NCBI GenBank assembly: GCA_016930215.1
Contig: JAFGHH010000320.1
Coordinates: forward strand, 1-39,643
From: Deltaproteobacteria bacterium
GTDB lineage: Bacteria; Myxococcota_A; Polyangia; DRWM01; JAAZOP01
Length of the DNA stretch: 39,643 nt
Reading direction: 5' to 3'
Within the stretch, counting starts at the first letter, position 1. Every line of letters starts with the position of its first letter. Below are positions 3,722 through 35,722 of this stretch, piece after piece. A program made the translations under genes and the position numbers. Below the pieces are notes generated by a model that did not search any database, was not told where the DNA came from, and saw nothing but the letters and a program-made list of their open reading frames with translations.

Positions 3722-3752
3722 CCTCGCTCCTCCCGGCCCGCGCAACGGACGC

Positions 3753-3782
3753 ATCATAGCGCGGGCGGGGGCGGACGACCAA
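3753..3782 (-). promoter_or_regulatory. sigma70-type promoter for the two FHA-GGDEF genes
   Basis: On the minus strand, TTGGTC (3782-3777) and TATGAT (3758-3753) are 18 bp apart. The start site would be near 3746, about 25 nt before the GTG at 3721. It is back to back with the promoter of the PPC gene; the two -35 boxes are 5 bp apart. Confidence 0.65.
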
Positions 3783-10124: not shown

Positions 10125-10781
10125 TCAACGCGTTCCGAACCGCTCCACCGCCTCGCGGATCCGCCGCCCCGGGTCGCCCCCCTCCAGCAGCGTCGCGACC
10201 AGCGCCGCGGCGTGGGCCCCCGCGTCGCGCACGGCGGGCAGGTCGTCGAGGCCGAGACCGCCGATCGCCACCAGCGGCCGGGGGCTCGTCGCCGCGGCCG
10301 ACCGGAGCCCCGCGAGGCCCACCACGGGGTCGGCCCGCGCCTTGGTCCGCGTCGCGAACACCGGGCCGAAGCCCAGGTAGTCGACCGGCTCCCCGGCGGC
10401 GGCCTCGACCTGGGACGCGGAGTGCGTCGAGAGCCCGAGCAGCGGGCGCGGGCCGAGCAGCAGGCGCGCCTCGCGCGGCGGCAGGTCGTCCTGCCCCACG
10501 TGCGCTCCGTCGGCGGCCGCCAGCCGGGCGACATCGACCCGGTCGTTGACCACGAACGGCACGCCGGCCGCCCGGCAGAGCGGGGCCAGTGCGCGCGCCA
10601 GGCGCAGCAGCGCGCGGTCGTCGGCCCCCTTGGCGCGCAGTTGCAGTGCGGCGAGCGGCGCGGCGAGGAAGGCGGCGGCGGTCCGCTCCGGGTCGAGGCC
10701 GGCCGCGGCGCAGGCGTCGAGGTCCACGATCGCGTAGATCCCCCGCCGCAGCCCGACCCGTTCCCCGTTTCCGTTCGTCAT
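10125..10781 (-). CDS. thiE: thiamine-phosphate synthase
   Basis: A 218-residue TIM-barrel enzyme joining hydroxymethylpyrimidine diphosphate and thiazole phosphate to give thiamine phosphate. Family segments in order: LQLRAKG, FVVNDRVDVARL, GAHVGQDDLP, LGLSTHS, DYLGFGPVFATRTK and the phosphate-binding VAIGGLG. The ATG at 10781 has GGAGGAGGAAC upstream. No other thiamine gene is in the window, so it stands alone. The upstream region consists of a degenerate 7-bp repeat, so I could not place its promoter. Confidence 0.93.
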   Translation of the reverse strand: MTNGNGERVGLRRGIYAIVDLDACAAAGLDPERTAAAFLAAPLAALQLRAKGADDRALLRLARALAPLCRAAGVPFVVNDRVDVARLAAADGAHVGQDDLPPREARLLLGPRPLLGLSTHSASQVEAAAGEPVDYLGFGPVFATRTKARADPVVGLAGLRSAAATSPRPLVAIGGLGLDDLPAVRDAGAHAAALVATLLEGGDPGRRIREAVERFGTR

Positions 10782-10786
10782 TTCCT

Positions 10787-10881
10787 GTTCCTCCTCCCGT
10801 TCCCATCCCTCATTCCTCGTCCCCTGTTCCTTGTTCCTTGTTCCTCGTTCCCCGTTCCCCGTACCCCGTTCCCCGTACCCG
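10787..10881. repeat. 7-bp tandem repeat (GTTCCYY) between thiE and the lgt-like gene
   Basis: From 10826 to 10881 eight heptamers follow one another in phase: gttcctt, gttcctt, gttcctc, gttcccc, gttcccc, gtacccc, gttcccc, gtacccg. More degenerate copies with one phase slip continue back to about 10787. The array ends exactly where the -35 box of the lgt-like gene begins. On the opposite strand it reads as GGGGAAC units. It is not a CRISPR: the units are too short and there are no spacers. Confidence 0.85.
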
Positions 10882-10911
10882 TTGAATCCCTCTGCCCGGT
10901 TCGCCTATTCT
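10882..10911 (+). promoter_or_regulatory. promoter of the lgt-like gene, probably leaderless
   Basis: TTGAAT (10882-10887) and TATTCT (10906-10911) with an 18-bp spacer. The GTG start at 10918 lies 6 nt beyond the -10 box, about where transcription should begin, and there is no ribosome site. Confidence 0.55.
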
Positions 10912-10917
10912 CCCATC

Positions 10918-11817
10918 GTGCACCCCGTTCTGTTCAAGGTGCCACTGCTCGGATGGGAGGTCTACTCGTACGGCGTCCTGCTCGGGCTGTCGCTGCTGAC
11001 CGCCTGGTTCCTCGTGCACCGCTGGGCGCGGCGCGAGGGGCTGCCGCGGGAGACGGTGGCCGACACGTTCGTGATCGGGGCGGTGGCCGGGCTGCTGGGG
11101 GCGCGGCTGCTGTACGTGTTGATCAACCTCGGCGAGTTCGAGAACCCGCTGCGCATCGTGCAGATCGGCCAGGGCGGCCTGACCGCCTGGGGCGGCCTGC
11201 TGGGCGGAGCGCTCGCCTCGTGGCTGTTCCTGCGGCGCAAGCGGCTGCGCGCGTGGCCCTGGTTCGACGCCGCCACCCCCGCCGTGATGCTCGGGCTCAG
11301 CTTCACCGGCCTCGGCTCGTTCCTCCACGGCTCGGACTTCGGTCGCCCGACGGAGACGCTGGCCTGGGCCGTGCAGTTCCCGGCCGGGACGCCGGCCTTC
11401 GAGTGGCACGACCGGGCCTACGGGCTGGCGGCGCAGGGCATCGAGTGGTCGCGGCCGATGCACCCGGTGCAGCTCTACGCGACCGTGGTCGGCCTGTTGC
11501 TGTTCGGCCTGGTGCTGCTGGTGCGCCGTCGTCGGACCTTCGGCGGCCAGGTCTGCCTGCTCGGCACGATCGCCTTCTCGGGCGCGGTCTTCGTGCTGGA
11601 GACCTTCCGCGGGGACCCCAAGCGCGGCTGGGTCTGGCTGTGGTCGATCTCGCAGGTCATCGCGCTGGCGGTCTGCATCGCCGCCGTCGCCGTCTACGTC
11701 GTCTTGTGGCGTCGCGCCCGCCGCGATCCGACCCGGGCCTTCGAGATGGGCTCCGGCCTCGAAGCGGCGATCGAGGAGGACCGGCAGTCCCGTGCCTCCC
11801 GTCCCCCGCCCGAGTGA
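10918..11817 (+). CDS. divergent prolipoprotein diacylglyceryl transferase (Lgt) family protein
   Basis: A 299-residue polytopic membrane protein. Lgt-family landmarks are VYSYGVLLGLS near the N-terminus, GGLTAWGGLLGG, GSDFGRPTE, MHPVQLYAT and the late segment FVLETFRGDPKRG. Lgt moves diacylglycerol from phosphatidylglycerol to the lipobox cysteine. By hand alignment with E. coli Lgt, the GRLGN segment reads TGLGS here and the Arg of the last motif (E. coli R239) is Val, so two arginines considered important are missing. It may be a specialised or inactive paralogue, which is why I give no symbol. I start at GTG 10918; the track ORF from 10831 merely translates the repeat array. Confidence 0.8.
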   Translation: MHPVLFKVPLLGWEVYSYGVLLGLSLLTAWFLVHRWARREGLPRETVADTFVIGAVAGLLGARLLYVLINLGEFENPLRIVQIGQGGLTAWGGLLGGALASWLFLRRKRLRAWPWFDAATPAVMLGLSFTGLGSFLHGSDFGRPTETLAWAVQFPAGTPAFEWHDRAYGLAAQGIEWSRPMHPVQLYATVVGLLLFGLVLLVRRRRTFGGQVCLLGTIAFSGAVFVLETFRGDPKRGWVWLWSISQVIALAVCIAAVAVYVVLWRRARRDPTRAFEMGSGLEAAIEEDRQSRASRPPPE

Positions 11818-17470: not shown

Positions 17471-20400
17471 ATGGGAGCATCCCGGACGGAGCGCTCGCAC
17501 CGGTGGGTCGCGGTGTTCGCATGCACGATCGCGTTGACGACGATGGCGCGACCGACGGCGGCACGGGCGAACAACGTGTACTTCGATTTCACCATCCCCG
17601 CCGACCTCGGGCCGGTCGTGGACGCGTTGGTCTACGTGCTTCCAACCTACCAGCTCCTGCCGCCGTACCTTCCATCGGCGCACGAGGCGGCGGTATACCG
17701 CGCCATCGGGCTGGCATGCGGCCCCGACGGCGACCCGTCGGAGTGCGCGTTCTACAAGGCCGACTTCAACGACTGCACCGGCTCTTCGTTCGGCGGCTGC
17801 GCGTCGTACAAGTTGTGCACCGACGGCGTGGGTCTGCCGTTTGACGACTACTGCAACACCATCGGCTACGTCGGCCTCGGCGAAGGCGGTTTCAGCACCT
17901 GGGACTTCACGGGCCTGCTGGTTGGCGCCCGCTTCGTGGACATGCGGGAGCTGACCGGACCGGAGGCGGCCGCAATCAACGAGATGGCCGACGCCTTCGC
18001 GGACGGCCTGGCCGGCAAGCGACCCTGGGAGAGCACGATCGGCACCGCCGACCAGTTTCAGGCGCAGCACGGCTACGCCACGACCCGGTTCCTCGAGGAC
18101 AACCGCTTGTACGACGTGCCGTGGACGACGACCATCGTCGGCGACGTGACGGTCCGCAGCTACTCCGTGCCCGGCCTGGTCGAACGGAACCAGGCGATGC
18201 TCACCGCCTCCGCCAGCTTCCTCCTCGACCGGATGCTCCAGGCGTCGCCGGAGGTCGTGCCGCCGAACGACCTGCCGGTCAAGGACTTCTCCACGATTCG
18301 CGCGACGCTCGGCGAACACTGGCGCGCGGGGCTCCTGGTCGCCGGAACGGCCATGGTGGCCTGTCCGGCCCCCTCCGCCGCAGTCCTAGCGACCGCCGCG
18401 CTCAGTGAAGACAGGGCGGAAGCCTGCATCGCAGTGGGAGCCATCATCACAACGTTGCCGGCGGTCGGGCTGCCGTGCATCGGAATGAGCGGCTTCCTGG
18501 GTTCCGTCGCCTGCGGCTCCGAGCATGGCGAGCAGGTGATGGTCCGTCCCGACCTGCTGTACCTCGGGCAGGGGACGCACACGATTGCGGACTCGTTCGC
18601 GCACACCGTGCGCGACTTCCGCAACGTCGTCGCGCCCGGAACCCCGGAGGACGCCCTGTCCGTGGCCGCCTTCCGGTCCAACGGCACCACGCCCTGGTAC
18701 TACCGGCACAGCGACGCGATGGACCACAATGGCAGGTACCACTATCTTGGAGAGGTCTATGCCTTCGACGCCGACGAGGAGTCCGGCGACCCGCTGTTCA
18801 TCGAACGGCTCGGCAACGCCCAGGGCGAGGCCAACATCCGCTACACCGCCGCGGCGATCCGCGACTGGCTCGCGGTGTTCGAAGGGACCGTCGGCGGACC
18901 GCCGCCGACCTTCCAGGAGCGGCTCGAACGCTTCCGCCGCTTCGTCAAGCGGCATCTGGCCTACGCGATGCCGCAGGAGCTGGCGCCGGCGAACCTCCCG
19001 GACTACCGCCGCGCCGAGAAGTGCCGCGCGGACGCCGACTGCGTCGACGCCTTCGAGGACGGCAGCGGAAGCACCGCCGTCTGCGACCTCGTTTCCGGCA
19101 TCTGTCGGCACGTCTGCGCGGCCGACGAGGATTGCCAACCGGGGTTCCGCTGCACGAGCGGCGTCCCCTGGGACTACGCCGGAGTCGTCGCCTCGAACCG
19201 CTACTGCTCCGCCCTGTGGGATCCCTGGGAAAACGTCGCCGACGAGTACCTGATCGGCATCCAGCGCTCCGAACAGGGTGACTTCACCGGCAAGCGATGG
19301 CTGGCGACCTCGAGCGCCGCGAACGAGTGGTACATGATGGAGCGGACCAACACCGGGGAGCCCGAGGGCTTCTCCTACGAACGAATCGAGTGGCACCGTG
19401 CCGGCCTTCGAGCGGGCCTCACCGGGGGCGAGGAGCTGGTCGCCCTGGCGTTCGACGGCCTCGGCTACACCGGAGACGTCCACCCCTTGACGACGTCGGT
19501 TCCGGCGGGCGTGGAGTCCCCGGCCGGCGTGGTCGTCCCGGCCGGCACGCAGTCGATCTACGTCGAGCCGCGGAGGCGCGTCTGTCTTCGCAACCCGGAA
19601 GACCGGCAGCTCTGCCTCTACGGCGGGCTGCACGGCACGGCCGAGGGGCGGCTGATGCGCGCCTGGCGCGGTCGCGTGGCGTCCGTGTCGTGGCAGAACC
19701 TGGACATCGATGGCGACGGCGTCGGCGACAGGTCGGACAACTGCGTGTTCGCCTCCAACTCCGGACAGCAGGACCTCGACGGCGACGGCTACGGCGACGC
19801 CTGCGACCGCGACGTCGACGGCGACCTGGTGCTCGACGACAGCAACGGGTGGTTCGGCTTCGCCAACGGCCTGCGCGACCCGTGCGTTCCGGCCGCGGGC
19901 CGGTGGCCGACGGCCGAGCGCTGCGACGACAACTGCCTGCGCGTCTACAACCCGGCCAAGCGCGACCTCGGCTCCCTGCCCGCCGGGCTGGAGACGCCGT
20001 CGCCCGTGCGGGACCTCGTCCCCGACCAGTTCGACCTCGACGGCGACGGCGTCGGCGACTCGTGCGACCTCGACCCCGACGGGGACCAGGCCGGCCTCGA
20101 GTACGCCTGGCCCGACGACTACGTGCAGGCCGCCGGCGAGCAGCTCCCGGGCCGGCCGCCGCCGAGCAGCCGGACGCCGTTTACCGAATGCGCCGACTTC
20201 CTCTGGTTCCTCTCCGACGACAAGGACGACGACGGCGTCTGCGACCTGTACAACTTCATCCCGTACATCAACAACCTCGTCGACTGGATGCCGGACCAGA
20301 GCTATGGCGCGGCCCCGACCGCAGGCTTCGGCTACCTCAAGCCGTGGTCGGCGCGCGCGCACATCGATACCATGAACGGCCACTACCTCTCCGAGCGGTA

Positions 20401-23400
20401 CCGGTACGATGCGGGCTCGGACGTGCGCGTCAAGCCGCCGCCCGATTCGCTCGCGGAAGAGGACCCGGGCGAGGCCGGCTACACCTGGTACCAGTACGTC
20501 GACCGTCCGGCAGGCCCCGACTACGCGACGTTCGGCTACGAGGGGTGCATGCGCAACCTGGTCGACGTCTGGCACTACTACCAGGGCGATCGGAGCATGA
20601 CGTCCATCGCGGAATCCCCGACGCCCGGCCGCCACGACGTCGAGTTCCTCCAGGCGAAGTCCGACCTGATCGAGCAGCTCGAATCCAACGCCGTCGGCTC
20701 GCCGCCGCACTGGTCGCCGACCCCGTACTACGCCGACCGGCAGGAGTTCGCCCTGGCGAGCGATCGCGACGCCTGGAACACCATGCTCGGCGAGATCAAG
20801 TTCAAGAAGGAGCAGCTCTACCGCAACCTGGAGCCCGAGCTGTGCCGGGTCGACGACTGCATCCGGTTCATGCGGATGAACGGGCCGTTCGACGTCGGCC
20901 CGAACGACCTCGACCCGCTGAGCCGCCGCATCATGGTCGAGGACCAGTATCCCGACCTGGAGCTGGGCACCAACCGCTCGGGCTGGTGCTGGACCGAGAA
21001 CCTCCACAGTGTCGCCGGCGACCCGTCGGACGAGCCGCACAGCACGCAGATCTACTGCGACTTCTGCGAGCACTTCGAGGAACCGACCCCCGCCCAGTGC
21101 CGCGAGGACGACGACCCGGACGAGACGTCGTCCGGCTACAGGAAGTGGTACCGGAACGAGAACCAGCTCGACACCAACCACGACGGCATCGGCGACAAGT
21201 GCTCGGCGTGGGTGGAGCTCGTCGACCTGGAGCAGGACCACGTCACGCAACGCCTCTGGACCGGACACTGGACCAGCAGCGGGAGTTGGGGCACCGACGC
21301 GATGCGCGACGGGTTCGTGGATTGGACCGCGCCCGAAGACCCGCGGGACCCGGAGACCGGTCTGCCGGTCCGCAACGACCAGGACTGGTCGACCGCGCCG
21401 GAGGACGCCGTCGCCCCGGCCGGCCTGTGCGAGCGGTGCACGGAGGAGGGGCTCTCCTGCGAGGTGCGCAAGTACCGCATCTGGCCCAAGCAGGAGCTGG
21501 AGTTCCGCGTCAGCGGCTCCAGCGGCGACCCCGTCCCGAGCACCCTCGGCGCCTGCGCCTGCGACTTGCCGGACCGTGCATCGTGCTACGGCAGCGACGA
21601 TCGCTGCTGGCGCCCCCTCGACGACCTGTGGAAGACGGAGCCGGACGAGTACCTGCTGCAGGCGCAGCGCCGCGAGTTCAACACGACCACAGGTAGACCC
21701 CGCTATCCCGGTTTCCGGCTGTTCGGGAACCGGACGCCGGAGATGTACGGGCGGCTGGTCGTCACCGAGCCGTGCCAGCCGCGGACGCGGCTCGCGGCGG
21801 GCGGGCCGTTCGGGCCACGGTTCTTCGTCGAGTACGGCTGGGACCGGAACCCGGTGTCCGTGGCGGACGGCTGCCAGGAGATCGCGCTGCTGTTCGAGGA
21901 GGGCGAGTACCGCCGGCTCGAATGGGGCTACCACGCGCAGGTGGAGCCGGACCGGCGGGAGCTGGAGGCCGTGGGCGGCTTCTTCGACTGGACGCGGAAC
22001 CCGCGCGGCGAGCAGCTCTGGATGGGCGATGCCGCCGGCCTCTCCTACACCACCGCGATGCGGGTCGGCATCCTCGGCACCCCGGACCCGGCCGACCCCA
22101 CGCGCAAGTACTGGCAGCGGCAGTGGCACACTCGGACCTACGGTTCCTTCGCCGAAGGCGACCCGCCGGAAGGCTCGGTGGCCGACCGCGATCGGCCGGT
22201 GCCGGACACGATGTTCGGGTTGGCGGCCGACGGCGAGGTCGGGCTCGTGACCTACGTCCCCACCTGCGGCGGCCCGATCTGGCCCGAGATCGACATCGTC
22301 GACGGGCCGGTGCCCGAGTGGCCGGGCGACATCCGCTCGATCCCGGCGTTGGACCGCGAGGCGGTTGTCGCGGTGGCGGAGCGGATTTCGGCCGACGGCC
22401 GGGCGTCCGTCGTTCTGGACGTCGCCGAGGTGACGATCGGCACCGGCGAGGTGGACCGGCGGCAGGAGAAGTTCGAGCTGCCGGCGCCCGGCTTCCCAGT
22501 CCGCGACTTCGCGCGCGCGCGGCTGCTCCTGAGCGCGACGAAGGCGGGCGAACTGTTCGACTACGGCGGCCAGAAGCAGACGGCGGAGGTCACCCTCCTC
22601 GTGAGCGGTCGCGACGCAAACGGCATCGCCTCGACCGACGTCTGGATCTCGCGGGGCTGGGACGCCGTGCCGGCCTTCGAGAAGCTCGAAGCGCCGAGCG
22701 GCCCGCCGCCGAACGTCGACCAGGACGCTGCGTCATCGCCCTCCAACCTGCCGAGCTTCGTTCGTCCGCGGCTGTGGTTCGACGCTTCCCGGACGCGGCT
22801 GCTCGTGCTGGCGGGCCGGACCGCCGACGACACGCCGCTCGACCGCGTGTGGAGCTTCGACCTCGCGACCCGCCGCTGGTCGACATTGGTCGGTGTCGGC
22901 GGCCAGGCCGTACCGATTCCGCCGCCTGCGGCGCTCGGGGAGCTGGCCCGCGACCCGGGCGGCGGCCGCGCCTACCTGGTAGCGCCCGGCGAGAACGGCA
23001 TGCACGTCTACGGCATCCGGCCGGGCGACGCGGCGCCGGCGTTCGAGGAGATTCCCGCGGTCGGCGCCCGTCCGGCGCCTCGGAACGACGCCGCGGTCGC
23101 CTACAGTCCGAGCCTGGGCCAAGTGCTTCTCTTCGGCGGGTCGCTCCTCGGCCCCGGCACGACCCCGGGAGATGACGGGACCGCCGTTGCGGCCGGCGCG
23201 GCGACCCTCGGCGACCCGGGCGGTTTCTTGGGAGACCTCTGGGGCTTCGACCCTCGCAAGGGCGTCTGGACGTTGCTGCGACCCGACGCGGGCCCCGGCA
23301 TCGTCCGCGCCGGCGCGGCCCTGGTCGTCGGCAGCGGCGAGAAGGCGTACGTCCTGGGCGGACGCAACGCCTGGGGCGGCCTGCCGGTGGATCGATCGCT

Positions 23401-24865
23401 CCGCGTCGATCTGGGCGCTTCGAACGACCAAGGATGGACGCTGACCGAGCCGTCCGCCCCGCGATTGCTCACGGTCGACGGGGCGGCCCACCACGGAGCA
23501 TGGCGGCCCGGCGACGTCGAATCGTTCCTGCTCGTCGGCCAGGATCTCCGCCCGGACCAGCGCGCCCCGGTCCAGGTGGTGCTCGAGGCGGACGGTGGGC
23601 AGCTCGGCTTCGTCGTGCAGTCGCCGACCTCCCGCGCGTGGTATTCGGGCGAGGCGGGAGACGGACGCTCTCGGGCGACCGTCGCCCTGCTGCCCGGAGA
23701 GCAGTACCGGGTCGTGGTGTTCGGCCCGCCCGGAACGGTTCCCGCAACGGGGATTCCCTACTCCCTCGAGGCGACGTCGGTGCTGCCGCAAGGGCGTCGC
23801 TGGACCATCGCCGTGCCCGGGTTGACGCGTTTCGATGCCGCCGGGAACCGGGTCTACGTCGCCGACTGGAACAAGCTCGACATCCACGAGTGGCGCGGAG
23901 CGGCGCTGGTGCGGCGCGGGTCGCTGGCGATGGGGGCCGCGGTCGATGTGGAGGTCGTCGGCGGGGTCGCCTACGTGGCCGACTTCGAGCGTGGCCTGGT
24001 GTCGGTCGACGTGAGCGACCCGACGACGCCCCGGGTGCTCGACACCGAGTGGCTGCTGGGCGCGCCCGACTCGGTGGCGGTGCGCGAAGGTCGGGCCTAC
24101 CTCGGGACGGGGGTCTTCGGCGTGGCGGTGGTCGATGCCGCCGATCCGACCGACCTGGCCTGGACGGCGCAGATCGTCCCGCCCGGACTGTCGCCGCCGC
24201 AGCACGATCGGGCCGAGGCCGCCGGCGGTAGCGGGTGTCTGGCTCGGGTCGTCGACGTTTCCATCGGCGGCAATCACCTGCTGGTCGCGGACTCGAACCG
24301 GACCGTCTGGATCTACGGGTTGGACGCCGACCAGTCGTCGGTCCTGGCCGGCAGCTACGTGGCGTTGCGACAGGTCGAGGACACGGCGGTGCACGGTCGG
24401 ACGCTCTTCCTCAGCGACGGTCGTGCCGCCCTGGAAGCCGTCGACATCCGCCATCCCGCAACGCCCACCCGGATCTCCGTCGTCCACGGCCCGGAGTGGG
24501 AGGTCTCTGCGCGCTACGGCTACGACCTCCAGGCCCGCCGCAGCGTCGCCAGCGGCATCGTCGTGCAGGGGATGAAGGAGCTTCCCGGGGAGCGTCACCG
24601 GCGCCGCTGGGGTGGCCCGCACGGCACCTGCCGTGACGGGTGGAGCGACGAGGACGAAGACAGGCGTGACGGATGCGAGGGGTGGGCCGGGTGCGACGAT
24701 CACGGCGGCGGCGACGGCGCGCCGCCCGACGACGATCCTCCCGGTCACGGTGGTCACGGGGGCCACGGTGGCGGCGGCGGCGACGGCGCGCCGTCCGATG
24801 ACGATCCTCCGGATCACGACGGTCATGGCGGCGGCTCGGGTGAGGGACGTGGAGGACGACGGTGA
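17471..24865 (+). CDS. giant secreted mosaic protein (PLC-like motif, TSP3, kelch, LVIVD)
   Basis: A 2464-residue protein. I start at ATG 17471, preceded by AAGGAGG. A Sec signal ends near ARPTAARA-NN. About residues 368-385 hold GTHTIADSFAH, an H-x3-D-x3-H pattern like the metal site of zinc-dependent phospholipase C-type domains; this call is tentative. A Cys-rich segment follows (about 517-562). TSP3-type calcium loops lie near 745-790, 855-875 and 1235 (DLDGDGYGDACD, DTNHDGIGDKC). Kelch-like repeats (LLFGGS, VLGGRN) lie at about 1765-1990, a PPC-like beta module at 2010-2110, LVIVD-type propeller repeats (VAYVADFERGLVSVDV) at 2115-2345 and a His/Gly/Asp tail from 2407. It is probably cell-surface or secreted, calcium-stabilised and adhesive or enzymatic. 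The next gene starts inside its stop codon. The 231 bp before it show no convincing promoter, only a CACCT/AGGTG inverted repeat at 17364-17378. Confidence 0.85.
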   Translation: MGASRTERSHRWVAVFACTIALTTMARPTAARANNVYFDFTIPADLGPVVDALVYVLPTYQLLPPYLPSAHEAAVYRAIGLACGPDGDPSECAFYKADFNDCTGSSFGGCASYKLCTDGVGLPFDDYCNTIGYVGLGEGGFSTWDFTGLLVGARFVDMRELTGPEAAAINEMADAFADGLAGKRPWESTIGTADQFQAQHGYATTRFLEDNRLYDVPWTTTIVGDVTVRSYSVPGLVERNQAMLTASASFLLDRMLQASPEVVPPNDLPVKDFSTIRATLGEHWRAGLLVAGTAMVACPAPSAAVLATAALSEDRAEACIAVGAIITTLPAVGLPCIGMSGFLGSVACGSEHGEQVMVRPDLLYLGQGTHTIADSFAHTVRDFRNVVAPGTPEDALSVAAFRSNGTTPWYYRHSDAMDHNGRYHYLGEVYAFDADEESGDPLFIERLGNAQGEANIRYTAAAIRDWLAVFEGTVGGPPPTFQERLERFRRFVKRHLAYAMPQELAPANLPDYRRAEKCRADADCVDAFEDGSGSTAVCDLVSGICRHVCAADEDCQPGFRCTSGVPWDYAGVVASNRYCSALWDPWENVADEYLIGIQRSEQGDFTGKRWLATSSAANEWYMMERTNTGEPEGFSYERIEWHRAGLRAGLTGGEELVALAFDGLGYTGDVHPLTTSVPAGVESPAGVVVPAGTQSIYVEPRRRVCLRNPEDRQLCLYGGLHGTAEGRLMRAWRGRVASVSWQNLDIDGDGVGDRSDNCVFASNSGQQDLDGDGYGDACDRDVDGDLVLDDSNGWFGFANGLRDPCVPAAGRWPTAERCDDNCLRVYNPAKRDLGSLPAGLETPSPVRDLVPDQFDLDGDGVGDSCDLDPDGDQAGLEYAWPDDYVQAAGEQLPGRPPPSSRTPFTECADFLWFLSDDKDDDGVCDLYNFIPYINNLVDWMPDQSYGAAPTAGFGYLKPWSARAHIDTMNGHYLSERYRYDAGSDVRVKPPPDSLAEEDPGEAGYTWYQYVDRPAGPDYATFGYEGCMRNLVDVWHYYQGDRSMTSIAESPTPGRHDVEFLQAKSDLIEQLESNAVGSPPHWSPTPYYADRQEFALASDRDAWNTMLGEIKFKKEQLYRNLEPELCRVDDCIRFMRMNGPFDVGPNDLDPLSRRIMVEDQYPDLELGTNRSGWCWTENLHSVAGDPSDEPHSTQIYCDFCEHFEEPTPAQCREDDDPDETSSGYRKWYRNENQLDTNHDGIGDKCSAWVELVDLEQDHVTQRLWTGHWTSSGSWGTDAMRDGFVDWTAPEDPRDPETGLPVRNDQDWSTAPEDAVAPAGLCERCTEEGLSCEVRKYRIWPKQELEFRVSGSSGDPVPSTLGACACDLPDRASCYGSDDRCWRPLDDLWKTEPDEYLLQAQRREFNTTTGRPRYPGFRLFGNRTPEMYGRLVVTEPCQPRTRLAAGGPFGPRFFVEYGWDRNPVSVADGCQEIALLFEEGEYRRLEWGYHAQVEPDRRELEAVGGFFDWTRNPRGEQLWMGDAAGLSYTTAMRVGILGTPDPADPTRKYWQRQWHTRTYGSFAEGDPPEGSVADRDRPVPDTMFGLAADGEVGLVTYVPTCGGPIWPEIDIVDGPVPEWPGDIRSIPALDREAVVAVAERISADGRASVVLDVAEVTIGTGEVDRRQEKFELPAPGFPVRDFARARLLLSATKAGELFDYGGQKQTAEVTLLVSGRDANGIASTDVWISRGWDAVPAFEKLEAPSGPPPNVDQDAASSPSNLPSFVRPRLWFDASRTRLLVLAGRTADDTPLDRVWSFDLATRRWSTLVGVGGQAVPIPPPAALGELARDPGGGRAYLVAPGENGMHVYGIRPGDAAPAFEEIPAVGARPAPRNDAAVAYSPSLGQVLLFGGSLLGPGTTPGDDGTAVAAGAATLGDPGGFLGDLWGFDPRKGVWTLLRPDAGPGIVRAGAALVVGSGEKAYVLGGRNAWGGLPVDRSLRVDLGASNDQGWTLTEPSAPRLLTVDGAAHHGAWRPGDVESFLLVGQDLRPDQRAPVQVVLEADGGQLGFVVQSPTSRAWYSGEAGDGRSRATVALLPGEQYRVVVFGPPGTVPATGIPYSLEATSVLPQGRRWTIAVPGLTRFDAAGNRVYVADWNKLDIHEWRGAALVRRGSLAMGAAVDVEVVGGVAYVADFERGLVSVDVSDPTTPRVLDTEWLLGAPDSVAVREGRAYLGTGVFGVAVVDAADPTDLAWTAQIVPPGLSPPQHDRAEAAGGSGCLARVVDVSIGGNHLLVADSNRTVWIYGLDADQSSVLAGSYVALRQVEDTAVHGRTLFLSDGRAALEAVDIRHPATPTRISVVHGPEWEVSARYGYDLQARRSVASGIVVQGMKELPGERHRRRWGGPHGTCRDGWSDEDEDRRDGCEGWAGCDDHGGGDGAPPDDDPPGHGGHGGHGGGGGDGAPSDDDPPDHDGHGGGSGEGRGGRR
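24699..24831 (+). repeat. in-frame duplication encoding the His/Asp/Gly tail
   Basis: Two copies of about 60-70 bp (24699-24759 and 24760-24831) encode GDGAPPDDDPPGHGGHGG and GDGAPSDDDPPDHDGHGG. The shared core is gcgacggcgcgccg followed by gacgatcctcc. The repeat gives the giant protein a tail suited to binding metal ions. Confidence 0.8.
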
Positions 24866-28329: not shown

Positions 28330-30285
28330 ATGCGCACGACGCTGCTGCTGTTCGCCGCCCTGGCCGCCACCGGGTGCCGCAAGCCCGACACCGGTCGCCC
28401 CGACACCGGCGGGCCGTTGGTCGTGGTGGAGGCCCCGGACGTCGTGAGCGCGGCGGTCGGCCTCGACGCGGCATCCCCCTCGGCCGGCGGCTACTGCGTC
28501 GAGAACTGGCGTGTGACGATCCCGCCTCGCGCCCGGCTGCTCGACCTGGCCTGGGTCGACACCCAGGCCGTGCTGCTGCTCGAGCAGGAGGGGACGTTCA
28601 TCGCCGTCGTGGTCGGCGGCGGCGGCCAGGCCGCGGCGGCGGTGCTCCAGGACTTCGTCCCCGAGTTCGTCGGCGAGCAGGCGCCGTTCGGGCGGCTGGT
28701 GCAGAAGGGCTCGCGGACTCTGGCGCTGTACGGCTGGGTCCGCGCGCGCGAGGCGGCGCAGCTCTTCGGCCGCGTGGTCCGGACGGGCGCCGTGCTCTCC
28801 CCGGCGGCCGAGGCCGACGGCGTGCGCCGCCGCTACTTCTCCGCCCGGCCGCGCCCCGACTGGGAGCTGCCCGGCGACCCGACGGTACCGGAGAGCCGGC
28901 TGTGGACCGCCGGCTTCGAGAGCCGCTTCCTCGTCGTGCTCGACCTGTGGCAGCGGGACCGGATCGACGCCGGCCGCGTCACGCCGGTCAAGAAGCACCT
29001 GTTCGCGCTGTTCGGCGGCACCGGGAAACGCGCCGGCGGCTGGGACCTGCGTGCCTCCCGCGGCGCCCCGCCCGCCGTGCTCGGCGACCGCCTGATCCTC
29101 GCCGTCTCGTCCCGCGACCGGCAGTTCGAGGTTCTCGACGGCGGCGGCCGTCGCAAGCAGGAGCCGCTGCTCGACGCGCTCAAGGCCGACCCCTCGTGGG
29201 TCCCGCTCGTCGGCGGCTGCTTCCCCGACGCGCCGGCCGCCCCGGCCGCCGACGGCGGAACGGCGGCGCCCGACTGCTTCGCGCTGCTGCAGCCGGTCGA
29301 GCCGCCGGTCTCCGGCCTGCCGCCGGTCCGCGCGCTGCGCGCCGACGGGACGGCCTTCGAGTGGCGCCTGCCGGTCGACCTGGCCGAGACCTCGACCTTC
29401 GAGACCCTGGCCGACGGGTTGCTGTGGGCCCGTGCCCCGGACGGCTCGATGTGGGCCGCCGGCCCCGACGGCGTCGTCGTCCAGCGCACGATCCTGCCGC
29501 CCGGCGCCCGGCTCCGCCGTTGTTCCCGCCAGGAGCTGCTCGCCGCCGTCGGCGACGGACCGCTCGGCCCGAACCTCGTCGTCTCCTGCGTCCCCGGCGG
29601 CGCCAGCGCCGAGCCGGCTCGCGGCGTGGCGCTCGAGGGCACCGTGGCGCAGGCCCGCCGCGACGCCTCCGGGCCGTGGAACGAGGGCGCCCTCGCGGCG
29701 CTCGACGCGATCGAGCAGCAGCTCGCCACCGGCACGACCCCCGACCCGGAGCGGCTGGCCGAGCTGGCGACGTTCGACGACGCGCGGCGCATGGCGACCC
29801 GCTCGCGGACGCTCGACCCCGACAACCTCGTCGCCGCGCTGTCCGCGGCGCGGGCCGAGGTGCTGGCGGACGACCCCGCGGCGGCGCTGCGCGAGTTCGC
29901 CGCGATCGAGGGAGCCGAGCCGTCGCGGCGCGAACGGCTGGTGCGGCTGGCCTGCACCGACGGGCGGTTCGCCGCGCTGCGCTGGAACCCCGACCTCGGC
30001 GCGAGGCTCGGCTGCCCCGAGGCCCCGCCGGCCTGGTTCATCCTGCTGCGGCAGGGCGGTCTGCCGGCCGGGGACGCCGGCCTGCCGGCCCTCGGGCCGC
30101 TGCCGGGCACCGAGCCCGACGCGGGCGCCGTCGTGCCGGACGCGGAGCCGTCGCCGGACGTCGAGCCGCCTCCGGACATCGACGCGCGGCCGCTCGTGCC
30201 GCCGCTCGTGAACATCGTCCCGCTCCCGAAGCCGCCGCCCGACGCGACACTCGTGCCCGCGCCGCCGCCGGGTGGAACGCCCTGA
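28330..30285 (+). CDS. large lipoprotein of unknown function, coupled to tolC
   Basis: A 651-residue protein with a leader ending ALAATGC, so a likely lipoprotein. The body is beta-rich with many WxxD-like and aromatic strands (LLDLAWVDTQAVLLLEQEG) that could form a propeller. The region around 460-590 is helical, with TPR-like character (EGALAALDAIEQQLATG, PAAALREFAAIEGAEPSRRE). The last 60 residues are Pro/Asp-rich (PSPDVEPPPDIDARP) and look disordered. I recognise no family. Its stop overlaps the start of the TolC-family gene (TGATG), so the two are made together and may form part of an export machine. Confidence 0.85.
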   Translation: MRTTLLLFAALAATGCRKPDTGRPDTGGPLVVVEAPDVVSAAVGLDAASPSAGGYCVENWRVTIPPRARLLDLAWVDTQAVLLLEQEGTFIAVVVGGGGQAAAAVLQDFVPEFVGEQAPFGRLVQKGSRTLALYGWVRAREAAQLFGRVVRTGAVLSPAAEADGVRRRYFSARPRPDWELPGDPTVPESRLWTAGFESRFLVVLDLWQRDRIDAGRVTPVKKHLFALFGGTGKRAGGWDLRASRGAPPAVLGDRLILAVSSRDRQFEVLDGGGRRKQEPLLDALKADPSWVPLVGGCFPDAPAAPAADGGTAAPDCFALLQPVEPPVSGLPPVRALRADGTAFEWRLPVDLAETSTFETLADGLLWARAPDGSMWAAGPDGVVVQRTILPPGARLRRCSRQELLAAVGDGPLGPNLVVSCVPGGASAEPARGVALEGTVAQARRDASGPWNEGALAALDAIEQQLATGTTPDPERLAELATFDDARRMATRSRTLDPDNLVAALSAARAEVLADDPAAALREFAAIEGAEPSRRERLVRLACTDGRFAALRWNPDLGARLGCPEAPPAWFILLRQGGLPAGDAGLPALGPLPGTEPDAGAVVPDAEPSPDVEPPPDIDARPLVPPLVNIVPLPKPPPDATLVPAPPPGGTP

Positions 30286-31841
30286 TGCTCCGCCGTCTCG
30301 GGCCGCTGTTCCTGGTCGTTGCGTGGCTGCCCGCACGGAGCCCGGCGCAGCCGTCCGAGCCGTCCGAGCCGCCGGCCGGCCCCGCTCCGGAGATCGCCGG
30401 CCCCGCCGCCCAGGTGGCGCTCGAGGCGACCCGCGCCGCGGAGGACGAGGCGGCCGCCGCGGGCGGCACCGCGGCCGCGGAGACCGCGGAGGCCGTCGTG
30501 GGCCTGCTGCTCGACGACCTGCTGCGCCTGGCCGAGGAGCACCCGCTGGTCGGCGCCGCGCGCGCCGACGTCGATGCCGCCGAGGCGCGGCTCGACCAGG
30601 CCCACTGGGCGCCGTACTCCAACTGGTCGTTCCAGACGATGTTCACCTTCGTCCCGCCCGCCGGGGCGTGGGAGGACGAGGTTCGGGCGGCGGCCGGTCG
30701 CACGGTCGACAACCAGTGGGATCGGTCGATTCTCGACTGGGGCCCGTGGATCCGGCTGGGCGTGTCCGGCGGCATCCCGCTCTGGACGTTCGGCAAGATC
30801 ACCGGCGCCTGGGACGCGGCGGAGGCCGGCGTGCGCGCCGCCGACGTCGGCGTGCAGCGCGCGCGGGACGAGGTGTCCTGGCAGGTGCGTCGTGCGTACC
30901 TGACGCTGCTCCTGGCGCGCGACATCCTGTATCTGATCGAGGACGGCCGCGGTTACATCGACGACGCCCGCGAGGAGACGCAGAAGCGCATCGACTCCGG
31001 CGAGGGCGGCGGCTCCACCGTGGATCTGTACAAGATCGACGCGCTGGCCGCGGAGGTCGATGCCCGCGAGTTGCAGGCCCGGCGGCTCGAACGGCTGGCG
31101 CTGGCGGGGCTGGCGCTCTTGACCGGCGTCGAGGACGGCGCGGCGATCGCCGACGTGCCGCTGGCCCCGTTCGGCCTCGCCGCGGCCTCGCGCGCCGACT
31201 ACGTCGAGCTGGCCGGACGCGAGCGCACCGACCTGCGGATGCTCGAGGCCGGCATCGCCGCCCAGCGCGCGAAGGTCGAGATCGAGACCGCGCGCTACTA
31301 CCCCGATCTGTTGCTCACCGCCTCGGCCGGCTACGCCTACAGCAGCGTCACGGTCGACCAGCACAACCCGTGGGTCTCCGACCCGTTCAACACCTCGGGC
31401 GTCGGCGCCGCCCTGGTGCTCGACTACCCGCTCGACTTCGTCGCCGACCACGCCCGCGTCGAGGAGGCCGAGGCGACGCTCCGGCGGCTGGAGCAGCAGC
31501 GCGAGGCGCTGGGGCAGGCGGCGGAGGTCGAGGTCGTCGACGCCTTCGAGTCGCTCGAGGAGGCGCGCGGGCGGATGGGGGCGTACGACCGGGCCCGCGT
31601 GGCGGCCAAGCGCTGGCTGATCGCGATGCTGCAGGGGATGACGTTGGGGTTGCAGGAGGCCTCCGACATGACCGAGGCCCTGGTGTCGTTCTTCCAGAAC
31701 GAACTCCACTACCTGAACGCCGTGTACGACCTGGACCTGGCCTGGGCCCGCCTGGCGCTCGCGACCGGTTCCAACCTTCTGGAAGGTGCCGTTTTTTCGG
31801 ATTCCTGGGCCGCCGAGCCGACCGCGACCGGCTCCCCTTGA
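30285..31841 (+). CDS. TolC-family outer membrane efflux/secretion channel
   Basis: A 518-residue outer membrane channel protein of the usual TolC length. A leader (LRRLGPLFLVVAWLP, cut before QPSEP) is followed by an Ala/Glu-rich linker, then two OEP repeats of long helices: HPLVGAARADVDAAEARLDQ and ARDEVSWQVRRAYLTLLLAR in the first, ERTDLRMLEAGIAAQRAKVE and YYPDLLLTASAGY in the second. It should form a trimeric channel linking inner-membrane pumps to the outside. No pump or adaptor gene is adjacent; the only coupled gene is the lipoprotein. The TGATG overlap fixes the start at 30285; the track ORF from 28374 is open only because of GC bias. Confidence 0.93.
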   Translation: MLRRLGPLFLVVAWLPARSPAQPSEPSEPPAGPAPEIAGPAAQVALEATRAAEDEAAAAGGTAAAETAEAVVGLLLDDLLRLAEEHPLVGAARADVDAAEARLDQAHWAPYSNWSFQTMFTFVPPAGAWEDEVRAAAGRTVDNQWDRSILDWGPWIRLGVSGGIPLWTFGKITGAWDAAEAGVRAADVGVQRARDEVSWQVRRAYLTLLLARDILYLIEDGRGYIDDAREETQKRIDSGEGGGSTVDLYKIDALAAEVDARELQARRLERLALAGLALLTGVEDGAAIADVPLAPFGLAAASRADYVELAGRERTDLRMLEAGIAAQRAKVEIETARYYPDLLLTASAGYAYSSVTVDQHNPWVSDPFNTSGVGAALVLDYPLDFVADHARVEEAEATLRRLEQQREALGQAAEVEVVDAFESLEEARGRMGAYDRARVAAKRWLIAMLQGMTLGLQEASDMTEALVSFFQNELHYLNAVYDLDLAWARLALATGSNLLEGAVFSDSWAAEPTATGSP

Positions 31842-31867
31842 CTTGTCCCCCCGAAACAGCCGATAAG
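31838..31867 (+). promoter_or_regulatory. sigma70-type promoter for the ECF sigma operon
   Basis: TTGACT (31838-31843) overlaps the TGA stop of the tolC gene, and GATAAG (31862-31867) follows after 18 bp. The leader would be about 53 nt to GTG 31927. Confidence 0.65.
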
Positions 31868-31926: not shown

Positions 31927-32553
31927 GTGGACATTGCGGCGACGACAACCTGGCCCGGGGTGATTCTGGCATTGCCGGCGAACGACGACATCGTCGCGCG
32001 CAGCCAGGCGGGAGATGCGGAGGCGTTCCGGGAGTTGTACCGGACGCACCGTCCGCACGTGGCCCGGCTGATCCAGCGCATCCTCGGTCCGGACTCCGAG
32101 GTGGAGGACGTGATCCAGGAGGCGTTCATCCAGGTCCACCGTTCGCTGCCGTCGTTCCAGGGCACGTCGCTGCTGTCGACCTGGATCCACCGCGTGGCGG
32201 TCAACGTGGCGCTGCAGCACATCCGCCGGCGCAAGCGCCAACGCGCCGGCCCGGTGGTGATGACGGCGGAGCCGCCCGAGCCGTCGACGGGGGACGTCGT
32301 GCCGGAGGAGGACGTGCTCTGGCGCGACCGGATGCGCAAGCTCTACGCGGCGCTCGAGCAGGTCTCGCCGAAGAAGCGCGCCGTGTTCGTGCTGCACGAG
32401 ATCGAGGGGCTGAGCGCGGAGGAGATCGCGAAGGTGATGCGGGCGCCGCTGATCACGGTGCGCACGCGGCTGTTCTACGCGCGCAAGGCGCTGTACGCCG
32501 CGTTGGCCGTCGACCCGGCGTTCCGGGAGTTCCTCCCGGGAGGTGATCGATGA
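31927..32553 (+). CDS. ECF-type RNA polymerase sigma factor
   Basis: A 208-residue sigma70-family factor lacking regions 1 and 3. Region 2 spans about residues 33-105 (AFRELYRTHRPHVARLIQRI, VEDVIQEAFIQVHRSLPSF, STWIHRVAVNVALQHIRRRK). Region 4 spans about 138-195, with the helix-turn-helix GLSAEEIAKVMRAPLITVRT. The GTG at 31927 has GGCGGAGG upstream. The next gene, which encodes a zinc-finger anti-sigma-like protein, overlaps its stop (ATGA). That is the usual arrangement of an ECF factor and its own inhibitor. Its promoter looks sigma70-dependent, so autoregulation is not obvious. Confidence 0.93.
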   Translation: MDIAATTTWPGVILALPANDDIVARSQAGDAEAFRELYRTHRPHVARLIQRILGPDSEVEDVIQEAFIQVHRSLPSFQGTSLLSTWIHRVAVNVALQHIRRRKRQRAGPVVMTAEPPEPSTGDVVPEEDVLWRDRMRKLYAALEQVSPKKRAVFVLHEIEGLSAEEIAKVMRAPLITVRTRLFYARKALYAALAVDPAFREFLPGGDR

Positions 32554-33848
32554 GCGCCCACGCACCCGACCTCAAGAAGCTGTTCGCGATGCTCGACGGA
32601 CGGCTGTCGCCCGCCGACCGGCTCGCGCTCCGCACGCACCTCGAGACGTGCAAGCCGTGCGCGGACAAGCTGGCGGAGCTCGAGCGCACGCGGGCGGCGC
32701 TGCGCGAGCTGGGGACGCGGATGCCCGCACCGCCCGCCCGGGCGCCCGACGCCGAGGCGAAGCTGATGCAGGCGGTCGAGCAGCGCGGTGCGCCGGGGCT
32801 GCGCGTCGCCTGGTGGTGGCTCCCGGCCACCGCCGGCGCCACTCTGCTCCTCGCACTGCTCGTGCTCCCGTCGCTGCGCTCCGCGCCGTCGGGCGAGGCG
32901 CCGGTGACTGCGCGGGTCGAGGGGACCGGGCCGGCCGTCGCCGGCGGCTCCGTCGCCACGGTGCTTGCCCTGCGCGGCCAGGTCGACGAAGGCCCGTCGC
33001 TCGAGCAGCTGCACGCCGGCCACGCCGGCGAGGAGCTGGCCCCGTCCGTCATCGTCCACACCGGCACCGACGGCGAGATCCGCCTGGCGCTCGCCGCCGG
33101 CGGCGAGGTGACCCTCGGGCCGTCCTCCTCGCTGGTGCTGCCGGACGAGGCCGATGGGATCGTGCGGCTCGAGTCGGGGACGCTCGAGGTCGCGGTCGTG
33201 CCGCGCACCGAGGACCGGCCGCCGTTCGGCGTCGAGACGCCGCTGGCGCGCATCGAGGCGATCGGCACGAAGTTCCGCGTGGTGCACGAGGACGAGTTCA
33301 CCTCGGTCGACGTCACCGAGGGCAAGGTGCGCTTCGTCTCGCTGCGCAGCGACGAGGAGCAGCTCGTGCTGGCCGGCGCCGCGGTCCACGCCGACGGCGA
33401 GGGGCGGCTGGCGGAGGGCCCGGGCGGGACGGCGACCCACGTCGCGGCCGGTCCGCCGCCGGACGAGACGCCCGAGGCCCCGGAGGAGCTTCCGGAGGCG
33501 GGCGGCGACGAGCCCCCGGGCGACATCGCCACCGAGCCGCCCGTGCAGGTCCGCCGCGCCAACGGCACGATCGACCAGGGCAAGGTCCGCGCCCGCGTCT
33601 CGCGCCAGCGCGGCGCGCTCCAGGCCTGCTACAGCGACTACGTGATGCGGATGTCGCCGCAGGCCGTCGAGGCGCGCGTGCGGTTCGTCGTGCTGGAGAA
33701 CGGCACGCTCGGCGAGATCGAGCCCAACCTCTCGGTCGAGGACCAGCCGCTGCGCGAGTGCATCGAGCGGGTGTTCCGGGCGATCGAGTTCCCGCGCCCG
33801 CAGGGCGGCCCGGCCCGCGTCTTCTACCCCGTCCGCTTCTCGTTGTAG
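32550..33848 (+). CDS. anti-sigma / FecR / AgmX-PglI fusion protein
   Basis: A 432-residue membrane protein with an unusual domain order. A cytoplasmic N-terminus has the zinc-binding anti-sigma pattern H30-x3-C34-x2-C37 (HLETCKPC). One membrane helix follows (about 85-110, WWWLPATAGATLLLALLVL). The outer part holds a FecR-like domain (VIVHTGTDGEIRLAL, GGEVTLGPSSSLVL, PLARIEAIGTKFRV), a Pro/Glu-rich linker, and from about residue 340 an AgmX/PglI C-terminal (TonB-like) domain, seen in ALQACYSDYV, LRECIERVF and a final IEFPRPQGG strand. It probably holds the ECF factor inactive and senses an envelope signal through its periplasmic domains. Confidence 0.88.
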   Translation: MSAHAPDLKKLFAMLDGRLSPADRLALRTHLETCKPCADKLAELERTRAALRELGTRMPAPPARAPDAEAKLMQAVEQRGAPGLRVAWWWLPATAGATLLLALLVLPSLRSAPSGEAPVTARVEGTGPAVAGGSVATVLALRGQVDEGPSLEQLHAGHAGEELAPSVIVHTGTDGEIRLALAAGGEVTLGPSSSLVLPDEADGIVRLESGTLEVAVVPRTEDRPPFGVETPLARIEAIGTKFRVVHEDEFTSVDVTEGKVRFVSLRSDEEQLVLAGAAVHADGEGRLAEGPGGTATHVAAGPPPDETPEAPEELPEAGGDEPPGDIATEPPVQVRRANGTIDQGKVRARVSRQRGALQACYSDYVMRMSPQAVEARVRFVVLENGTLGEIEPNLSVEDQPLRECIERVFRAIEFPRPQGGPARVFYPVRFSL

Positions 33849-33898: not shown

Positions 33899-35722
33899 AT
33901 GCCGGTGCTCTCCTGGGCCGAGGCCCCCGACCGTCCCAAGCGCTACGCGATCTACAAGAAGCTGACCACGCTCGGGGCCGCTCCGGACAACGACGTGGTG
34001 CTCGAGGGCGCCGGGGTGGTGCCGTACCACGCGGTGGTGCTGTTCGACGGCCGGGACTTCGTGCTGCGCGAGGCGAGCCGTGAGGGGGAGATCGAGCAGA
34101 ACGCGCGCAAGCGCCGCCAGTTCCGCCTGCGCCACGGCGACCACGTCGGCCTCGGGTCCGTGGTGGTCGACTTCAGCGCCTACGACGAGTACGCCGGACA
34201 GAGCGCGCCGGGCACCAGTTCCTCCGAGGAGCAGCTGATCCAAGGGCTGACGCGGCTGCACGACTTCTCCAAGGCCCTGATGGGCAAGGGCGGCATCGAG
34301 GACCTGCTCCCCGCGCTGCTCGACTCCGTCGTCGCCCTGACCCAGGCCGACAAGGGCTTCCTGTTGATGTTCGACGACGGCAAGCCGACGGTCCGCGCCT
34401 CGCGCAACCTCGCCCCCGAGGTGCAGACCAACGCCGAGCAGGACCCCGGCAAGCTCGTCTCCGACTCGATCCTCAAGCAGGTCCTCGAGCGTCGCGAGCC
34501 GGTGCTGGTGGCGGACGCGCTGCACGACGCGGCGTTCTCCACGGCGCAGAGCGTGATCGAGCTCAAGCTCTGCTCCGTGATGTGCGTCCCGCTGCTCGAG
34601 GAAGGCCACCTGCTCGGCGTGCTGTACCTCGGCAACGACCGCATCGCCAACCTGTTCGACGAGAACCACCTGCGGATCCTGACCGTCTTCGCCGGCCAGG
34701 CCTCGCTGATCCTGCAGAAGGCCCGGCTGCTCGACCGCTTCCGCCAGGACCGCGACAAGTACAAGGCGCAGGCCGAGGACCAGCGCTTCGGCGACCTGAT
34801 CGGCGCCAGCCCCGCGATGCTCGACGTCTTCGCCCGCGTCCGCAAGGTCGCCCCCACCGACGTCTCGGTGCTGATCACCGGCGAGACCGGTACCGGCAAG
34901 GAGCTGATCGCCCGCGAGATCCACCGCCGCTCCAACCGCGCCAAGGGGCCGTTCATCGCCATCAACTGCGGCGCGATCCCCGAGTCGCTGATGGAGTCCG
35001 AGCTGTTCGGCCACGTCCGCGGCGCCTTCACCGGCGCCGTGGCCACCGCGGTCGGCAAATTCCAGGCCGCCAACGCCGGCACGATCTTCCTCGACGAGGT
35101 CGGCGAGCTGCCGCTCTCGCTCCAGGTCAAGCTCCTGCGCGTGCTCCAGGACCGCGTGGTGGTCAAGGTCGGCGACACCAAGCCCGAGCGGATCGACGTC
35201 CGCGTGCTCGCCGCCACCAACAAGACCCTCGAGGACGAGGTCCGCGGCCAGCGCTTCCGCGAGGACCTCTACTACCGCCTCAACGTCGTCGCCGTCGCGC
35301 TCCCGCCGGTGCGCGAGCGCGGCGAGGACCTGGTCACGCTGGCCAACTACTTCGTCCGCAAGTACCGCGAGGAGTTCAACAGCCCGGTGACCGGCTTCTC
35401 GCCCGAGGCGCTGGCGGCGATCCGGCGTTTCGAGTGGCCCGGCAACGTGCGGCAGATCGAGAACCGGATCAAGAAGGCGATGGTGCTCTGCGACGGCACC
35501 CTGCTCGGTCCCCAGGACCTCGACCTCGCCCCCGAGGACCTCGCGCCGATCCTCCCACTGGCCCAGGCCAAGGAGGAGTTCCAGCGCAAGTACGTGCTCG
35601 AGGTGCTCGAGCGCAACGGCGGGAACCGCACCAAGACCGCCAAGGACCTCGGCGTCGACCCGCGCACCATCTTCCGCTACCTCGAGAAGGAAGACGACGA
35701 GGAGCGCAGCGGGCAGGCCTGA
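33899..35722 (+). CDS. sigma54-dependent activator with FHA-like and GAF domains
   Basis: A 607-residue enhancer-binding protein. The ATG at 33899 is preceded by AAAGGAG. An N-terminal FHA-like domain (about 15-100) lacks the usual phosphothreonine contacts: GAAPDND replaces GR-x-x-x-x-D and VPYH replaces SR-x-H. A GAF domain spans about 120-280. The AAA+ domain has Walker A GETGTGKE (near residue 328), the sigma54-contact motif GAFTGA (near 375) and FLDEVGELPLSLQ. A Fis-type helix-turn-helix ends it (GGNRTKTAKDLGVDPRTIFR). It should open sigma54 promoters in response to a ligand or partner. I found no convincing -24/-12 element in the window, so its targets lie elsewhere. The track ORF from 32543 overextends it. 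Confidence 0.94.
   Translation: MPVLSWAEAPDRPKRYAIYKKLTTLGAAPDNDVVLEGAGVVPYHAVVLFDGRDFVLREASREGEIEQNARKRRQFRLRHGDHVGLGSVVVDFSAYDEYAGQSAPGTSSSEEQLIQGLTRLHDFSKALMGKGGIEDLLPALLDSVVALTQADKGFLLMFDDGKPTVRASRNLAPEVQTNAEQDPGKLVSDSILKQVLERREPVLVADALHDAAFSTAQSVIELKLCSVMCVPLLEEGHLLGVLYLGNDRIANLFDENHLRILTVFAGQASLILQKARLLDRFRQDRDKYKAQAEDQRFGDLIGASPAMLDVFARVRKVAPTDVSVLITGETGTGKELIAREIHRRSNRAKGPFIAINCGAIPESLMESELFGHVRGAFTGAVATAVGKFQAANAGTIFLDEVGELPLSLQVKLLRVLQDRVVVKVGDTKPERIDVRVLAATNKTLEDEVRGQRFREDLYYRLNVVAVALPPVRERGEDLVTLANYFVRKYREEFNSPVTGFSPEALAAIRRFEWPGNVRQIENRIKKAMVLCDGTLLGPQDLDLAPEDLAPILPLAQAKEEFQRKYVLEVLERNGGNRTKTAKDLGVDPRTIFRYLEKEDDEERSGQA

Follow-up and report, generated by a model that had tools for sequence, protein, structure and literature searches.

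What can a TonB-like domain be doing at the end of an anti-sigma factor? The question is raised by a pair of genes on a contig of 39,643 nucleotides (C447), which we analyzed at its full length and call the window. It belongs to a draft genome (G000) of 6.4 Mb in 611 contigs, estimated to be 84% complete. The first gene of the pair encodes an ECF sigma-70 factor (31927..32553, plus strand, 208 aa, GTG start) that matches Sigma70_r2 (65.1 bits) and r4_2 (50.2 bits) in Pfam and TIGR02937 (99.3 bits) in NCBIfam. The second encodes the presumed anti-sigma factor (32550..33848, plus strand, 432 aa, from the ATG at 32550 to the stop codon at 33846-33848). The stop of the former and the start of the latter overlap by 4 nt in the sequence ATGA (32550-32553).

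The anti-sigma protein combines four parts in one chain, all of them read on the plus strand. It starts with a zf-HC2 or zinc anti-sigma (ZAS) domain (residues 10-38, 32577..32663; Pfam, 31.7 bits for a cut-off of 22.2), whose zinc motif H30-x3-C34-x2-C37 has a nearly invariant histidine and two invariant cysteines in the alignment of relatives. Then comes a single membrane helix around residues 91-109 (32820..32876), predicted by hydropathy in 22 members of the family. It is preceded on the zinc-finger side by a basic residue, which fits a topology with the N-terminus inside. The FecR domain follows (residues 169-261, 33054..33332; Pfam, 51.3 bits for a cut-off of 24), and a Pro/Glu-rich linker (about residues 290-335, 33417..33554), predicted by AlphaFold to be disordered (pLDDT below 50), leads to the AgmX/PglI C-terminal, TonB C-terminal-like domain (residues 341-430, 33570..33839), hereafter the tail. 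The latter is recognized by its predicted fold and by the NCBIfam model NF033768, at 44.9 bits for a cut-off of 40 and over profile positions 1-91 of 92. Among PDB sequences, RsiW is a match of the window protein by itself. A profile built from the whole proteins of the family retrieves the PupR periplasmic domain (1.2e-8), a further two structures of putative FecR anti-sigma factors, and, for the zinc anti-sigma domain, DdvA, ChrR, and RsiW. The AlphaFold model of the full protein has a mean pLDDT of 64, with about 81-91 per block in the tail, and Foldseek retrieves with it FecR-type anti-sigma structures (4m0n, 4m0h, and PupR 6ovk), then TonB domains, and then RsiW. Hence, the preliminary description of this DNA was right in placing a zinc finger, a helix, a FecR domain, and an AgmX/PglI domain (put at residues 340-432) in one chain directly after an ECF gene. 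It had named a missing AgmX/PglI match of these residues as a refutation, and the match is there.

It had also called the tail TonB-like, and this was borne out by sequence profiles and the predicted fold. Modeled alone, the tail reaches a pLDDT of 94.9 and a pTM of 0.85, with its elements in the order helix-helix-strand-strand-helix-strand. Its best 21 Foldseek matches are C-terminal domains of TonB, TolA, HasB, or FusB, with modest E-values (about 0.01) and probabilities near 1.00. The TM-score with the TonB bound to BtuB is 0.56 when normalized by the query and 0.66 by the target. When a profile of 24 tails was compared with PDB sequences, the top 15 rows were TonB C-terminal domains or a TonB fusion (best E-value 4e-4), and HasB was matched weakly. 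The Pfam family TonB_C is above its cut-off in one relative (L022) and below it in the window protein. Judging from these profiles and models, the tail is of the TonB/TolA C-terminal type and not an STN domain.

Some positions of the tail, occupied by Cys, Gly, Phe, and Pro, are invariant in 22 of 22 members. The two cysteines, C360 and C404, fall in two of the predicted helices, and the pair, spaced by 43-46 residues, is nearly universal among relatives. Such an arrangement might be expected of a redox switch, in which a disulfide made or broken in the tail alters the access of proteases. The pair is however also present in tail proteins that have no anti-sigma parts, which makes it look structural, and we regard a redox switch as highly improbable.

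The architecture could in principle have been a unique fusion or an assembly error. We rejected this explanation because the open reading frame is present in three congeners and in about 17 families. Full-length relatives are about 78-79%, 62-63%, and 62% identical to the window protein in the three congeners, and 28-30% identical in other families of the class. The open reading frames of relatives that we read retain the order zinc finger, helix, FecR, and tail, and this conservation of frame and domain order in the congeners and in distant families indicates that the architecture is not due to chance. Among the 22 full-length members, at an E-value of at most 0.001, NF033768 was found in all 22, the NCBIfam anti-sigma model in 20, FecR in 18, and zf-HC2 in 16. 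Some relatives have an extra stretch ahead of the tail, which in at least one case contains a PEGA domain. An ECF gene lies immediately upstream and on the same strand in 29 of the 29 loci examined, a set that includes seven loci with divergent or missing tails. In a phylum-wide sample of 379 genomes, both ends of the profile were covered solely in the class of the window. Within this class, the match extends from the zinc finger through the whole tail in at least around 46 of 318 genomes, from about 17 families (a hand count of the listed rows), and in at least around 61 of 318 when the branch with divergent tails is added. These counts are lower bounds, as scoring was limited to a few top candidates in each genome and the domain check to 22 proteins. 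A narrower scan of public data with one alignment (A5) gave six loci only, the genus of the window among them. Hence, the three-domain architecture that accompanies this ECF gene is real, recurrent, and conserved across one class. A literature search with partial journal coverage found no paper naming it.

Among 66 ECF proteins placed in a tree, those paired with this architecture and those of relatives with a divergent tail or no tail form one branch (SH-aLRT 99), separate from 25 other ECF factors of the window's genome. As the relatives were chosen by the similarity of their anti-sigma factors and the comparison set comes from one genome only, the tree reveals clustering and not a dated origin. 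In one branch of this lineage (L060-L064, families f10 and f13), the tail has departed from the usual motif and keeps the pair of cysteines. Two others (L065 and L066) have no recognizable tail and are placed outside the class of the window. The position of this tailless pair would fit, tentatively, a gain of the tail within the class. The genome of the window also encodes, on another contig (L040, C598, approximately 10634-11512, minus strand), a zinc-finger/FecR anti-sigma factor within a frame of 1608 aa, the end of which is unlike the AgmX/PglI tail. It is accompanied by a second ECF gene (C598:11581-12054).

These divergent branches bear on the possibility that the tail is a structural or dimerization module that stabilizes the FecR domain, with the signal acting elsewhere, e.g., on FecR or on the proteases. 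Degenerated tails that still follow a ZAS-FecR protein, and proteins without a tail, speak for such a module, and some TonB C-terminal fragments are dimers in crystals. Yet, the tail has positions that are invariant in 22 of 22 members despite an overall identity of 21-28% outside the genus, and the linker ahead of it is predicted to be disordered. An independent binding domain fits these two features better, and we find a purely structural role rather unlikely.

What the tail might bind can be approached through the neighborhood. Directly upstream of the ECF gene is a gene for a TolC-type outer membrane efflux protein (30285..31841, plus strand; Pfam OEP, 111 bits), which adjoins the pair in three of the three congeners. 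It is preceded by a gene for a predicted lipoprotein with a Pro-rich C-terminus (28330..30285, plus strand), for which a Pfam search gave no match, and which is also the neighbor in both congeners whose contigs extend that far (G001 and G003). The TolC-type protein and the lipoprotein are no more than candidate partners of the tail in this genus. The loci outside the genus that we read (L034, L038, and L039) share no matching neighbor apart from the ECF gene, and there is no outer-membrane receptor gene beside the pair. Downstream, a gene for an FHA-GAF-AAA-Fis regulator, a sigma-54 activator (33899-35722, plus strand), lies close to the anti-sigma gene. We discarded it as an obligatory member of the operon: it is separated from the pair by two genes in G001 and by at least two others in G003, and gene order suggests that it is probably outside the ECF/anti-sigma unit. 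Elsewhere, the window encodes two neighboring FHA-GGDEF proteins, diguanylate cyclases that seem to form a tandem pair (1699-2769 and 2792-3754, minus strand), and a protein of 2450 aa with LVIVD, Kelch, and thrombospondin type 3 repeats (17513-24865, plus strand).

A possible, weak housekeeping promoter of the pair, TTGACT-18-GATAAG, is found at 31838..31867 (plus strand), where its TTGACT overlaps the stop codon of the TolC-type gene. A strict promoter scan of the window did not report this candidate. The elements TTGACTT and ATAAGG before the ECF gene are kept in the window and in three of three congeners (alignment A4), and the conservation of TTGACT and ATAAG hints weakly at such a promoter. 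We also considered an auto-regulated ECF promoter upstream of the ECF gene, GAAAC-N16-CGTTTG, which has one exact match in the window when none is expected. Its elements change in the congeners (to GAAAA or GAACC, and to AGTTTG or AGATTG), whereas TTGACT and ATAAG are kept, so we do not claim it.

Taken together, we favor, with a probability of roughly 60%, a switch of the cell-surface-signaling type made of an ECF factor and a transmembrane anti-sigma factor, in which the TonB-type tail is a passive sensor. The zinc-finger N-terminus would sequester the sigma factor in the cytoplasm; as zf-HC2 domains are also found outside anti-sigma factors, this binding is one that we infer from the family. 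The periplasmic part would consist of the FecR domain as a relay, the flexible linker, and the TonB C-terminal-type domain. The latter, at the position where FecR-type proteins have their STN domain, would passively bind an envelope or outer-membrane protein or peptide. When this contact is gained or lost, the chain would become exposed to periplasmic proteases, after which a site-2 protease of the RseP type might act and free the sigma factor. There are precedents for these steps. In FoxR, the C-terminal STN domain contacts the signaling domain of the outer-membrane transducer, and this binding protects the anti-sigma factor against proteolysis (PMC11637429). Escherichia coli FecR self-cleaves between G181 and T182, and the site-2 protease RseP cuts the membrane part of the anti-sigma factor (PMC8144685). 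The genome of the window encodes M50 site-2 proteases. Gly239-Thr240 of the window protein (33264..33269, plus strand) aligns with the E. coli G181-T182 (alignment A8, where a check of positions gave G181 as the residue aligned to G239), and the chain may be pre-nicked there as in FecR. Of 22 relatives, 18 retain the GT dipeptide, two have GA instead, and the remaining two have neither. The retention of GT in the window protein makes stepwise proteolysis plausible, and its loss in some relatives implies that self-cleavage is not general.

The preliminary description had gone further, relating the tail to gliding and the switch to envelope force or TonB-type contacts. The tail might indeed join energized contacts of the TonB/Tol/Agl type, so that the sigma factor reads envelope force or the work of the proton-motive force. 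It shares its domain with GltG and GltJ, and GltG binds the motor protein AglR (PMC3169522). The genome has four MotA/TolQ/ExbB genes, but contig C447 has none of them. TonB plug-domain genes occur at 11 places in this genome, none on C447. The membrane helix lacks His, Asp, and Glu in 22 of 22 members, whereas E. coli TonB uses a conserved His in its membrane helix. The full-length GltG model (NF033760) scores 31 of the 650 bits required, and motility genes were not found nearby, which led us to reject the protein as a gliding component. The tail is a common module: NF033768 has 23 matches in the genome, 16 of them over the cut-off, on proteins of widely varying length. A short protein of the sister genome G003 that looks like a lipoprotein (L042:8191-9045, minus strand) has a tail and linker akin to those of the window, with about 51% identity to the anti-sigma factor over 129 residues. 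This carrier, away from any inner-membrane motor, suggests that the module moves from protein to protein and does not require such a motor as a partner; it is possibly a competitor or a partner of the window's tail. Hence, of the earlier proposal, we retain the placement of an envelope-contact domain on a presumed transcription inhibitor, and we drop the link to gliding or mechanical force. An energized role looks very unlikely to us.

If the tail is a passive sensor, as we favor, a bolder version can be considered. In this receptor-less cell-surface signaling of Polyangia, the TonB-type domain would directly read TonB-box-like peptides of outer-membrane proteins, in competition with the real TonB or Glt proteins, and transcription would follow the engagement state of the outer-membrane partners. 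We hold this as a speculative and rather doubtful extension. TonB C-terminal domains are the arm that energizes outer-membrane receptors. The presence of such a domain on an anti-sigma factor, and its retention within a single ECF lineage in about 17 families of the class, suggest an arm turned sensor. It may also give an entry to what the common AgmX/PglI tails of myxobacteria bind, as this one is small, confidently predicted, and tied to a transcriptional read-out.

How does this system compare with the known ones? It resembles FecR, PupR, and FoxR in its ECF partner gene, single membrane helix, periplasmic FecR domain, and the further periplasmic domain that a linker joins to it at the C-terminus (PMC9249621, PMC11637429, PMC8144685), and shares with FecR and FoxR the Gly-Thr self-cleavage motif. 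It differs from the three in having a zinc-finger anti-sigma domain at the N-terminus, where theirs is of the FecR type with a conserved Trp, in ending with a TonB-type domain instead of STN, and in the absence of a gene for a TonB-dependent transducer beside the pair. The sole precedent that we found for a TolA/TonB-type C-terminal domain in ECF surface signaling is the VreA/VreI/VreR (PUMA3) system of Pseudomonas aeruginosa (PMC2729926), where VreA, a periplasmic protein of its own, has the domain together with STN, whereas here it is within the anti-sigma factor. GltG (PglI) and GltJ (AgmX) of Myxococcus gliding, the namesakes of the domain, are described as having one membrane helix and TonBC motifs, and contacts with outer-membrane proteins have been proposed for them (PMC3169522, PMC5349195). 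Like them, the window protein has an NF033768/TonBC domain at its C-terminus after a single membrane helix, but on the cytoplasmic side it has a zinc anti-sigma domain where they have, e.g., FHA, and its scores with their full-length models are far below the cut-offs. With RsiW, ChrR, and DdvA, it shares the N-terminal sigma-binding domain with HxxxCxxC, while the other parts of those proteins are different domains or absent. With this motif in an N-terminal zf-HC2/ZAS domain and a co-encoded ECF factor, it is a putative member of the ZAS class I anti-sigma factors. Hence, it recombines known parts and is not a new kind of system: it is nearest to FecR-type signaling, with the last domain swapped and a ZAS end.
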